Assembly: GCF_003259895.1 (NCBI RefSeq)
Contig: NZ_QLME01000007.1
Span: 1-64,000 of the forward strand
Source of the DNA: Halanaerobium saccharolyticum
GTDB lineage: Bacteria > Bacillota > Halanaerobiia > Halanaerobiales > Halanaerobiaceae
Direction of reading: 5' to 3'
Length of the DNA: 64,000 nt
The translations under genes and the position numbers were made by a program. Below, one piece after another: positions 306 to 52,148 of this stretch. Positions within the stretch are counted from its first letter, which is position 1. Every line of letters starts with the position of its first letter. The notes beneath the pieces are model-generated. The model was not told where the DNA came from. It saw nothing but the letters and a program-made list of their open reading frames with translations, and ran no database searches.

Positions 306-1034
306 TTATTCTACAAAAGAACCTTTAAGTTTAATCTCTTGATTATGGGCTTTAGCTCTTAAGAAAATTAGTCGACTGTCTTTTTTTAGAGACAGCGAAA
401 TTTCTTCTCCTGCTTCTACAAGCAGTCCCTCTCCTGATTCTAAATTATATTCTCCTTCTATCTTGCCTTTTATCAGATAAAGTACTGCAACCTCACCAGA
501 ATTCAGATTACGCTGAAAAGCTGTGTCTTTTTTTACTTTGAGATCCAAATATTTGATTTTGGTATTTAATTTTAAATCGGAATTATCTCCTGCAATTTCT
601 CTAATAATCAGATCATCAGTTTCTTCTTCCCGGATCTTATCTGCTTTAATAAACTGATAACTGGGATCTGACTTCTTGCTGTCTTCAGGAAGATTTATCC
701 AGAGCTGAATGCCTCTGCTCAATCCTTCCTCACCAGGTTTTTCAGAATGAGTAATTCCTTTACCGGCATTAAAAGCCTGAATCCCACCTGGACCAACTGT
801 TGCCTTATTATTCAGATTATCCTCATGCGTGAAATGACCTTCAAGCATATAGGTTATTGCTTCAAAACCGCGGTGTTCGTGAGGAGCGAATTCGTTTGGA
901 GGTTCGACAAAAAATTCATCAAGTAAAACAAAAGGATCATGAAACCCATTGTGATTTCTATTTGGAAAAAGTCTTTTTACCTCTGCCCCTGAGCCTTCCG
1001 CCTTTAAAACCGCTGAAACTTTTTTTGCTTTCAT
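306..1034 (-). CDS. Pirin family protein
   Basis: This 242-residue protein is a bicupin of the pirin family. The N-terminal cupin keeps the usual metal ligands as His52, His54, His96 and Glu98, in the motifs APHEHRGFEAI and GITHSEKP, so it should bind Fe or another divalent metal. Some pirins act as quercetin dioxygenases and others as redox-sensing regulatory partners; the sequence does not decide between them. Length is slightly below the usual 270-300 residues because the C-terminal cupin is short. The ATG has a good ribosome site (GGAGGG, minus strand). The gene is transcribed alone, away from the IS110 element, and its promoter area lies inside an exact 246-bp tandem duplication containing a 27-bp palindrome. 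The family call is secure; the physiological role is not known. Confidence 0.9.
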   Translation of the reverse strand: MKAKKVSAVLKAEGSGAEVKRLFPNRNHNGFHDPFVLLDEFFVEPPNEFAPHEHRGFEAITYMLEGHFTHEDNLNNKATVGPGGIQAFNAGKGITHSEKPGEEGLSRGIQLWINLPEDSKKSDPSYQFIKADKIREEETDDLIIREIAGDNSDLKLNTKIKYLDLKVKKDTAFQRNLNSGEVAVLYLIKGKIEGEYNLESGEGLLVEAGEEISLSLKKDSRLIFLRAKAHNQEIKLKGSFVE

Positions 1035-1085: not shown

Positions 1086-1304
1086 TTTAATTAAAATTTA
1101 ATTGTTTTTATTAAATTTAGATTTAGTCCCTGATATAATGATATTAAAAGATATCCAGGGTAGATTTAGATCCTCCTTGTAGCATGTTTTTGCATGACTA
1201 CTGGCTAAGTTTGATCCCCTGAAGCTGATATGAACTCCTAACACGTATGTTGTGTCCCATCTGTTTTCTGCTGCTTTAGCAGGCAGCTGCCTCGTATAAT
1301 ATAC

Positions 1305-1331
1305 TTAGTGATATTGAATATTTATCACTAA
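1305..1331. promoter_or_regulatory. Palindromic operator candidate, copy 2
   Basis: Second copy of the 27-bp palindrome, 246 bp from the first, produced by the tandem duplication. Here it is separated from the pirin start by the whole first repeat unit and lies on the recombinase side. Confidence 0.5.
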
Positions 1332-1364
1332 TTTAATTAAAATTTAATTGTTTTTATTAAATTT

Positions 1365-1610
1365 AGATTTAGTCCCTGATATAATGATATTAAAAGATAT
1401 CCAGGGTAGATTTAGATCCTCCTTGTAGCATGTTTTTGCATGACTACTGGCTAAGTTTGATCCCCTGAAGCTGATATGAACTCCTAACACGTATGTTGTG
1501 TCCCATCTGTTTTCTGCTGCTTTAGCAGGCAGCTGCCTCTGTACTCAAAACTTACTGGTGAACACTAATGGCGAGGCTGTCGAGCTCTCAGTTTTTCAGG
1601 GACTAAATCT
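1365..1610 (+). ncRNA. Candidate IS110 bridge RNA region
   Basis: Bases 1365-1379 and 1596-1610 are perfect 15-bp inverted complements (AGATTTAGTCCCTGA and its reverse complement), closing a region of about 245 nt directly upstream of the recombinase gene. Inside are smaller hairpins, for example CTGC-TTTA-GCAG near 1518-1530. IS110-family elements are known to express a structured bridge RNA from this position with target- and donor-binding loops. I infer the RNA from position and folding only; the loops have not been matched to a target or to the element junction. Because of the tandem duplication the left arm is also present at 1119-1133. Confidence 0.35.
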
Positions 1611-1661
1611 GGTTATCTTTTTTAGACTCCCAAACCAAAGGAGGTGATTCATATTAATAAA

Positions 1662-2885: not shown

Positions 2886-3065
2886 ATAATTATTGCAAAT
2901 TAGTCTGTTTACTTTATTTTCTATCAAAACTATTATTTAGTCATGGGCTGAATTGGTAAAAATTACTATTCAGGCTAGGCGGATAGGTCTATGCTTAATT
3001 TAACTTTTTTGAGTCAAATAAATTAAATTATTTCTTATTTTACCCTTGACATCTTACCGTATTAC

Positions 3066-4004
3066 TTATAATCTGTTTTTCGCCATCTTTTTAAATAATC
3101 TATCTGTATCTTCTTTAGTACATAATTCAGTTCCTGGAGTCATTACTGCTGCAGAACCTGCTGCCAGCCCATAGTGGAAAGAATTTTTTAAACTATCACC
3201 TCTGGCAAGACTCAATACTAATCCTGCTACCATGCTGTCTCCAGCTCCTACCTTGCTTTTAATGGGCACAGTCGGCGGCCGCATAAATTCTGCTTTCTGA
3301 TCTGTAACCAGCAGAGCTCCACCGGCACCAATTGAAATCACAATCGCCTGGCATGACTTATTCTCAACCAGTTTTAGAGCTTCCTCTTTTATTTCCTCTT
3401 CATTTTTTAATTCTCTTCCAATAAAATCCTGAAACTCTCCCAGATTTGGTTTAATTAAAAAGACACCCTCTTTGATCACTGATTTTAGTGGTGGTCCTGA
3501 AACATCAACAATCACTTTCGAATTTTTCTTTTTAGCAAGCTGCGCCATTTCTGCATAAATATTATTACTTACCCCTTCTGGAATACTGCCGCTAATAACC
3601 AGATAGTCAGGAAAAGGTTCTAATTCAGCTAATACTTCAAATATTTTTTTATATTCCTGCTCATTAATCTCAGGACCGGGCATCCCAAATCTATACTGGA
3701 GACTGGATGTTTTTTCAGTAATTATTAGATTTTCTCTGGTTTCTGCTTCAATTTCTATCGCTTTTTTATTAAGTTCTTCTTCTCCCAGCAGTTTATCCAA
3801 TTTTTTGCCAGTAAAACCACCAGAAGTATAGAGCAATAAGGAACTTCCTCCGAGTTTTTTAATGGCTCTGGAAACATTAATTCCTCCTCCACCTGGTTCA
3901 AAAACAGGTTTATCACAGTACAGTTTATCTTCTGCTTTAACATGGTCAACACTCGAATTTTTATCAATAGTTGGATTCAAAGTAAAAGTAACTATGTTTT
4001 TCAT
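3066..4004 (-). CDS. pfkB: 6-phosphofructokinase, PfkB type (ribokinase family)
   Basis: This 312-residue protein closely resembles Escherichia coli Pfk-2. It starts MKNIVTFTLNPTIDKN, keeps the substrate motif FEPGGGGINVSRAI, and has the anion-hole and catalytic motif GAGDSM with Asp256 near the C-terminus, the same number as in Pfk-2. It should phosphorylate fructose 6-phosphate with ATP in glycolysis; the related 1-phosphofructokinase and tagatose-6-phosphate kinases are alternatives, but the FEPGGGG pattern favours PfkB. The start was placed at the ATG preceded by AAAGGAG (6-base spacing) rather than an in-frame codon 12 residues earlier, which lacks a ribosome site. It stands alone, with the IS110 element downstream and a small HTH operon upstream. 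Confidence 0.85.
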   Translation of the reverse strand: MKNIVTFTLNPTIDKNSSVDHVKAEDKLYCDKPVFEPGGGGINVSRAIKKLGGSSLLLYTSGGFTGKKLDKLLGEEELNKKAIEIEAETRENLIITEKTSSLQYRFGMPGPEINEQEYKKIFEVLAELEPFPDYLVISGSIPEGVSNNIYAEMAQLAKKKNSKVIVDVSGPPLKSVIKEGVFLIKPNLGEFQDFIGRELKNEEEIKEEALKLVENKSCQAIVISIGAGGALLVTDQKAEFMRPPTVPIKSKVGAGDSMVAGLVLSLARGDSLKNSFHYGLAAGSAAVMTPGTELCTKEDTDRLFKKMAKNRL

Positions 4005-4107
4005 ATTTTCTCCTTTCTCTAACAGTGATTTTAAGGGCATAGTAGTGTATATAAATATTATTCTTTAAATATTAAATTCTTCCTTTAATTATCTATTATA
4101 TTATTGC

Positions 4108-14142: not shown

Positions 14143-14195
14143 AAAAAATCGCCCCCCAGATAAAGATTTAACTCTATATCCAGGCGGGCGATTTA
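14143..14195 (-). terminator. Terminator hairpin downstream of the cyclase gene
   Basis: AAATCGCCC (14147-14155) pairs with GGGCGATTT (14187-14195), extended inward by further CCTGGATA/TATCTGG pairing, followed on the minus strand by seven T. It lies about 160 bp past the cyclase stop and upstream of the pflB promoter, so it insulates pflBA from the preceding operon. Confidence 0.75.
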
Positions 14196-14356
14196 TTAAA
14201 GATTATATTCCCCTATGGTTAGCTCCATATTTATCCGCCAGTCATATAATCCATCTATTCAAATTTTTAAACTACATTTATAGTTTAGCAGATTCATTTT
14301 AAAGTGTCAAATCAATTTGCAGCTACCGTTTACCTGTCTTTTTTGTAAAAAATAAT

Positions 14357-45880: not shown

Positions 45881-45971
45881 AATAATTAAAGATTATAATA
45901 TATCTCACTAATCAAATTATTTTGTAGTTAAAAAATAACAACAAAACAAATTAGATTAATAAATATATAAC

Positions 45972-46079
45972 CTAACTCCCTTCCAGACTTTACTGTCGGT
46001 TCTGCATTTCATCAGATCAATCCAAAATGGACTTGTGGACTATTACCACCGGTAGGGAATTGCACCCATCCTCGTTAGT
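45972..46079 (-). ncRNA. FMN riboswitch (RFN element)
   Basis: Read on the minus strand, the aptamer has GAGGATGGGTGCAATTCCC, TACCGGTGGTAATAGTCCAC, GAAATGCAGAACCGACAGT and AAAGTCTGGAAGGGAG, the conserved blocks of the RFN element in order, closed by CTAAC/GTTAG. FMN binding should favour the attenuator downstream and switch off ribD-ribE-ribBA-ribH. Confidence 0.95.
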
Positions 46080-46100
46080 TTTATTAAATTTTCTATTTAT

Positions 46101-51838: not shown

Positions 51839-52125
51839 GAAAAAAACTCTCATCTTAACTAATAGCTAAACTATTAATCAGGACGAGAGTTCTCTCACGC
51901 GGTACCACCCAACTTGCTGTTTAAACAGCCTCTTAAAGTACTGATTTCTTTAAAAAATCAATACCATTGCACTTGATAACGGATGCATTTTAAATTATTA
52001 TGCCGGCAGTACCTATTTTAATTCAGAACCGCAGTTTAAGGGCTACAAAAATATTTTTTAGATCTCGGTTCTCAGCTGATCCGATTCTCTGTAATCGATT
52101 AAAAATATCTTACTCCCTCTCATAA
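51839..52125 (-). ncRNA. T-box leader of ilvB
   Basis: On the minus strand the leader begins with Stem I (GAGAGGGAGTAAGATA, at 52121 downward), has AGAGA and GAACCGAGA motifs in its upper part, and contains the T-box core GGGTGGTACCGCG at 51898-51910. The UGGU of the core pairs with an ACCA tRNA end, so the discriminator base is A. The intrinsic terminator is AACTCTC...GAGAGTT (51845-51891), followed by T. The specifier may be GUA (valine; bases 52044-52046), from the position in the lower Stem I loop; that reading is tentative. Confidence 0.92.
51840..51891 (-). terminator. T-box terminator of ilvB
   Basis: AACTCTCATCTTAACTAATAG (51845-51865) pairs with the segment 51871-51891, followed on the minus strand by six or seven T. 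It competes with the antiterminator formed with the T-box core when uncharged tRNA binds. Confidence 0.88.
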
Positions 52126-52148
52126 CTTTTATTTTATTTATTTTTTAT

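Follow-up and report, generated by a model that had tools for sequence, protein, structure and literature searches.

In a 64,000-nucleotide stretch of Halanaerobium saccharolyticum DNA (contig NZ_QLME01000007.1, positions 1 to 64,000; hereafter the window), we analyzed an insertion sequence (IS) of the IS110 family whose left end (LE) very probably encodes a bridge RNA that guides the circular form of the element into the Shine-Dalgarno (SD) sequences of genes, a program common to a clade of Bacillota elements. The case is built from sequence comparison, from which we read the ends of the element, its empty site, the promoter, the RNA fold, the concordance of guides with targets, and the location of the sites at SD sequences. 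A preliminary description had placed a probable bridge RNA in the leader of the recombinase gene, a proposal supported by the ends, the fold, and guide-target matching beyond all permutations, while overlooking that the target is an SD sequence. The coordinates of the features are collected in Table 1.

The recombinase gene had been described as intact, with DEDD and Transposase_20 domains, and profile searches agreed: its open reading frame (ORF) matched Pfam DEDD_Tnp_IS110 (E 2.7e-27) and Transposase_20 (E 3.6e-22) and scored 233 bits against the NCBIfam IS110 RNA-guided transposase model (cut-off, 140). The N-terminal DEDD (PF01548) and C-terminal Transposase_20 (PF02371) domains assign it to the IS110 group of the IS110 family. 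Traits of the IS1111 group were not found, the guide-bearing noncoding region (NCR) lying upstream of the gene and the two ends carrying no long inverted repeat. The protein has the motifs GID (aa 10), MEA (aa 66), and PKNDNVDAW (aa 113), and related solved structures include IS621 (8wt6) and ISCro4 (9t56). The probable translation start is ATT1653 or ATG1662 and not GTG1644, which overlaps the SD; ATT1653, in whose place the relative L024 has TTG, is the best positioned.

The ends were set by aligning near-identical copies without the use of any motif, the orientation of copies being taken from tblastn. Relatives came from H. salsuginis, with about nine left and eight right ends, from H. saccharolyticum WC1 and Halanaerobium sp. 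5-U2, and from further Halanaerobiales, and every left end listed diverges between CT and CGTATAAT. Among eleven groups of near-identical copies from ten other Bacillota genomes, the left breaks fell at, or a few bases from, the step between CT and CG, with the exception of the pair L134/L135 (alignable only from further inside the left end), and nearly all right breaks fell at or just past TTGACA-N13-CT. The element extends from CT1045 (canonically CT1291) to 3064, that is, 2,020 bp with a tandem duplication at its left end (see below) and 1,774 bp without it, and the core CT stands at 1045-1046, again at 1291-1292 through the duplication, and at 3065-3066. The leader region therefore falls inside the LE of the mapped element; the interval first assigned to it, 1290 to 1661, starts next to the true left tip, and the right end lies far outside it. 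The LE (about 360 bp) is longer than the right end (RE; about 180 bp), and the termini, CTCGTATAAT and CCGTATTA, form no inverted pair. A right end at 2943, first taken from the ATTTAGTC shared with the left side, was discarded after copy comparison put it at 3064. The source genome contains a single copy of the element, three solo left-tip pieces, and one distant IS110 element elsewhere (28% identity). In the H. saccharolyticum WC1 copy (L010/L017, G009:C24), the recombinase frame is broken (two overlapping frames, with a stop near codon 283), and the left end and guides are intact.

The element is flanked on one side by a pirin gene (306-1034, minus strand) and on the other by a pfkB-family gene (3066-4040, minus strand). 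The empty site that the preliminary description presupposed upstream of pirin was present in a relative (G001, locus L150), in which the same two genes (pirin 87% and pfkB 95% identical) have no IS between them. There, ...AAAAATAGGTTGTAAGAAGGAGGAAAATTAATG comprises the pfkB stop, an AGGAGG SD, and the pirin ATG; the site reads ...AGGTTGTAAGAAGGAGGAAAATTAATG, against ATTATA joined to AGGAGGGAAAAAATG for the rejoined flanks of the window (in longer form, ...AACAGATTATA joined to AGGAGGGAAAAAATG). On this alignment, the element is inserted inside the pirin SD, and the insertion is scarless, with no target duplication beyond the core dinucleotide in the empty site or the copy comparison. Since the LE starts with CT-CG, the junction rebuilds CG-AGGAGG ahead of pirin. 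A scan of the integrated left end for an outward promoter serving pirin gave no more matches than shuffled sequences, and none is claimed.

The same data bear on whether the AT-rich 80-bp tip (1290-1370) belongs instead to the host, as a repeat or mobile promoter used by the IS as its target, with the element proper starting near 1380. The tip does occur alone upstream of galE, dppC-like, and ThuA-like genes in this genome, it is also present in other Halanaerobium genomes, and a TATAAT at 1380 is likewise compatible with a 17-bp junction promoter. However, every H. salsuginis copy of the IS has the tip and breaks between CT and CG, near-identical copies in the ten other genomes show the same break, the G001 empty site is without the 80-bp repeat, and the solo tips are variably shortened on the inner side only, as expected of relics. 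We regard this alternative as very unlikely, and its mobile-promoter form was rejected on the copy ends and the empty site.

Across the clade, most full copies examined have a CTCGTAT-type tip at an SD, which makes the location a property of the clade and not of a single element. A start codon was found 6 to 19 nt from the core (nearly always 12 to 15) at 54 of 70 insertions and at all 15 truncated left-tip relics, against 1,569 of 13,586 CT positions (11.5%) for the null. In the sense of the gene, nearly all sites read AGGAGG, AGGGGG, or a near variant, the core AG being the first two bases, and the orientation is constant, with the LE towards the gene and AGGAGG kept. Insertions of an IS within genes are generally lost, so RNA-guided insertion might occur widely and survive in intergenic places next to SDs, the preference being a by-product of selection; relics at SDs are the kind likely to persist. 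Against this stand the base-level precision between AG and GAGG, the constant orientation, the CCTCC or CCCCC in most guides, and a covariation of guides and targets beyond the shared motif (see below), and we give such a by-product little credence.

Relatives were detected in 50 of 398 sampled Bacillota genomes (E ≤ 1e-60), and 418 plasmid records, of which Enterococcus accounts for 387, contained relatives of <60% identity; the only Enterococcus plasmid copy inspected (L144) had a weaker target match. A scan of IMG/VR found no relative. Both this genome and other Halanaerobium genomes have left-tip relics of about 40 to 90 bp at the SDs of host genes (L003, galE; L004, dppC-like; L005, ThuA-like; L057-L074), and some of these relics fill the entire gap from the upstream stop codon to the SD.

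The guides were placed by a rule (CT before the hairpin, AG after it), with those of L012 and L013, and second candidates for L009, L021, L087, L089, and L094, placed by hand. In the window, the left target guide (LTG) AUCCUCCU faces the target CCCTCCT, CCUCCU of the guide being identical to CCTCCT of the left target (LT), and the right target guide (RTG) UAAG pairs perfectly with CTTA. Where relatives occupy other sites, the guides differ with them: L008 has the LTG GGUUCCCCCU for the target TTTTTCCCCCT and the RTG AAAG for CTTT, the RTG is ACAG for CTGT in L012 and AGAG for CTCT in L014, and H. salsuginis variant 1 combines AAAG with CTTT at all five of the right flanks inspected; the L028 guide is CCACTCCT. 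Guides tracked targets across relatives of 38 to 90% identity. Plasmid relatives from Bacilli (Priestia, CGCCCCT; Alicyclobacillus, CATCTCCT; B. arachidis, CCTCTCCCT) matched their LT at 6 to 7 of 8 LTG positions, and for the plasmids L146, L147, and L148 (6, 7, and 7 of 8), annotated coding sequence starts agree with the location at an SD. Over 26 distinct LTGs, the mean LTG-LT identity was 5.32 of 8 against 4.05 with targets permuted (none of 20,000 permutations as high), and the first RTG base after the core matched in 94% against 50% (0 of 5,000), although these are not exact probabilities because related elements are not fully independent. Both loops had been expected to match, one the target and the other the element junction. 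The target guides do; the junction is matched in part, by the candidate right donor guide (RDG) CGAG, complementary to the near-invariant CTCG tip of the LE, and by the base of the candidate left donor guide (LDG) adjoining the core (-1), which covaries with the RE (17 of 20, p 0.0016), while -2 and -3 do not. A TTACT upstream of GGTGAACACT was tried as the LDG and dropped for lack of covariation in L008, L009, and L014.

The guide-target matching also bears on the idea that the leader is only a regulatory 5' untranslated region of the recombinase and holds no guide, comparable to the small RNAs of ISPpu9, described as regulators of the transposase (PMC8450116; this and the other papers cited are considered here in the excerpts available). 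The LTG CCUCCU is also complementary to the SD of the recombinase gene, AAAGGAGG, and might thus serve as an anti-SD, either in cis or in trans. Against this explanation, the guides covary with genomic targets and LTG and RTG flank one loop, the architecture of characterized bridge RNAs, and we hold this explanation to be exceedingly improbable.

Several observations weigh against a bridge RNA that targets SDs. By our rule, 16 of the 70 sites lack a suitably placed start of an ORF of 40 codons; some of these have short ORFs or unusual starts, and a few, among them L136 and L082, look truly off-SD. The permutation test covers only elements whose guides could be placed by the rule, plus the few placed by hand. 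The LTG of the window is exact over the core and four bases, with a U-G wobble adding one, and LTG matches are poor (1 to 3 of 8) in L021, L075, L105, and L091. Finally, the donor loop is partly resolved, with a single LDG position covarying.

The RNA fold points to the same architecture. The perfect 15-bp inverted pair 1365-1379/1596-1610 reported earlier is exact. It is internal to the left end, and the fold closed by it beats its shuffles: the segment 1303-1620 reached -93.8 kcal/mol against a mean of -66.4 for dinucleotide shuffles (z, -6.06; 0 of 100 as good), and no dinucleotide shuffle equaled 1363-1611 (z, -5.02). The preliminary description had proposed comparison with a bridge-RNA covariance model; Rfam searches matched no bridge-RNA family, so a new alignment fold took its place. 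Nine aligned Halanaerobiales left ends share the closing stem, a small hairpin, a target arm, and a donor region, with compensatory changes in 11 of 59 consensus pairs. As in IS621, LTG and RTG occupy the 5' and 3' sides, respectively, of an internal loop in the target arm. In L021, L022, L024, L025, L027, and L041, the target domain is separated from the 5' stem-loop by an extra conserved domain of ~200 nt (ATGTGGTAAACTTG...TTTTCCAAGC...TTATCCACAT). The contig of L021 (PUKU01000048.1) is binned as Candidatus Aenigmatarchaeota, and its IS copy is near-identical to the Halanaerobiaceae IS L022, a probable binning error.

Joining RE to LE yields TTGACA-TCTTACCGTATTACTCG-TATAAT, both boxes being consensus and the spacer 17 bp, a length found in 28 of 33 distinct clade elements. 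By its boxes and spacing, a promoter is created across the RE-LE junction, and the bridge RNA of IS110 elements is known to be expressed from such a promoter (PMC11208160).

We propose that the element exits as a circle whose RE-LE joint forms a consensus sigma-A promoter (TTGACA-17-TATAAT), which would transcribe a bridge RNA of ~300 nt from the LE and then the recombinase gene. The anti-SD-like LTG AUCCUCCU would pair with the SD strand AGGAGG and the 4-nt RTG UAAG with CTTA, so that the recombinase would insert the circle at the CT core within a gene's SD, with the left end facing the start codon. After insertion, the SD would survive and the gene would be severed from its former upstream sequence; across the clade, guides drift jointly with the exact SD variant occupied, and decayed copies persist as left tips of 40 to 90 bp at the SD. 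Expression of the RNA, RNA-guided recombination, and preserved translation downstream are steps that we infer from sequence features. A wider reading, which we consider likely, is that of a Bacillota-wide IS110 lineage whose bridge RNA imitates the anti-SD of 16S rRNA and so makes a landing site of the commonest short signal preceding bacterial genes, with the SD kept, left tips becoming 5' leaders of host genes, and a guide that can also pair with the recombinase SD and may damp its translation. The complementarity between the LTG and that SD (about 1637-1644) is also compatible with autoregulation or self-targeting.

If the clade targets ribosome-binding sites, this would explain how such elements find a target that is safe, abundant, and conserved in any genome, and it predicts easy crossing between species. 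Bridge RNAs are known to be programmable, and the natural IS110 targets described in the excerpts are mostly other repeats; the dozens of natural guide-target pairs found here form a data set for pairing rules across diverged recombinases, and the left tips suggest a route by which host genes gain new 5' leaders.

The element resembles IS621 (Durrant et al. 2024, PMC11208160) in its DEDD/Transposase_20 recombinase and CT core, in an LE that exceeds the RE in length, and in its junction promoter, 4-nt RTG, and LTG and RTG that include the core and share one loop. In IS621, too, the LTG resembles the left target in sequence, and the RTG base-pairs with the core and right target (PMC11208160). 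However, IS621 targets repetitive extragenic palindromic (REP) elements and the present clade SD sequences, the RNA is about 300 nt here against 177 nt in IS621 (oligonucleotide design, PMC11208160), and in our elements the main domain is closed by a long-range stem of ~15 bp, some relatives have the extra domain of ~200 nt, and the donor guides seem to lie close together on one strand. The seekRNA of ISEc21 and ISEc11 (Siddiquee et al. 2024, PMC11187229) is similar in that it derives from an NCR, matches each of the two target strands over a short stretch, and shows natural reprogramming between relatives, but ISEc21 targets a conserved site within transposase genes of the IS3 family. ISPpu9 and other REP-targeting IS110 elements also use a short, very common extragenic motif, in their case REP palindromes and not translation-initiation sites. 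Neither the survey of >300 targets of ISfinder IS110-family elements (PMC11187229) nor the IS621 paper (PMC11208160) mentions SD sites in the excerpts available. We found no report of SD targeting by the IS110 family in the searchable literature, outside which most subscription papers and preprints lie; no paper there joins IS110, "bridge RNA," and "Shine-Dalgarno," and those with IS110 and Shine-Dalgarno concern, in the parts available, other subjects. SD sequences are thus provisionally a target class new for the family.

A tandem duplication of 246 bp, missed by the preliminary description, occupies the left end: 1044-1289 and 1290-1535 are 100% identical, with CCTC at the borders. The 5' arm of the inverted pair is consequently present twice. 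The first unit has the promoter -10 box, the 5' stem-loop, and the target loop, without a donor loop, and the downstream LE copy is complete. The junction of the units, GGCAGCTGC-CT-CGTATAAT, joins an internal position of the LE to the tip of the element. That the breakpoint coincides exactly with the terminal core hints at involvement of the recombinase. The guides are a poor match for the internal site GCAGCTGC-CT-CTGT, so guided self-insertion is not favored over slippage at the shared CCTC, a possible origin of this duplication as it stands in the assembly.

Table 1. Coordinates of the IS110 element and its predicted parts in the window
Feature	Start	End	Strand	Evidence
Left target (LT) TTTTTCCCTC and core CT (1045-1046); other strand is the pirin SD (AGGAGGGAAAAA-ATG)	1035	1046	+	Empty site
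Extra partial left-end copy (first 245-246 bp), first tandem unit; target loop present, donor loop and closing 3' arm absent	1045	1289	+	Repeat comparison
Complete left end (LE), from core CT 1291-1292, containing the putative bridge RNA	1291	1652	+	Copy comparison
-10 box TATAAT of the predicted RE-LE circle promoter (TTGACA-17-TATAAT)	1295	1300	+	Sequence
5' stem-loop of the putative bridge RNA (UUAGUGAUA...UAUCACUAA)	1305	1330	+	Fold z -4.4
Main domain of the putative bridge RNA, closed by 1365-1379 with 1596-1610	1364	1611	+	Fold, 11 compensated pairs
Left target guide (LTG) ATCCTCCT, including core CT (to about 1 nt); resembles 16S rRNA anti-SD	1416	1423	+	Guide-target comparison
Apical hairpin of the target-binding loop (GTAGCATG...CATGACTAC; ends to about 2 nt)	1425	1447	+	Fold, alignment
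Right target guide (RTG) TAAG (to about 1 nt), pairs with core-right target CTTA	1452	1455	+	Guide-target comparison
Probable donor-binding loop GGTGAACACTAATGGCGAGGCTG: LDG ending ACT, RDG CGAG pairing with LE CTCG	1557	1580	+	Covariation
IS110 recombinase (DEDD + Transposase_20)	1644	2885	+	Pfam, NCBIfam, structure relatives
Right end (RE), terminating TTGACATCTTACCGTATTA; TTGACA 3046-3051 is the -35 box of the junction promoter	2886	3064	+	Copy comparison
Core CT (3065-3066) and right target TATAATCTG, at the end of the pfkB-family gene	3065	3075	+	Sequence, empty site

Other RNA elements were noted as well. A group II intron domain (RF02001) lies at 6076-6248 of L024, shortly downstream of the IS relative, and the minus strand of the window carries, above Rfam gathering scores, a ZMP/ZTP riboswitch (14171-14255), an FMN riboswitch (45967-46083), and a T-box leader (51876-52132).
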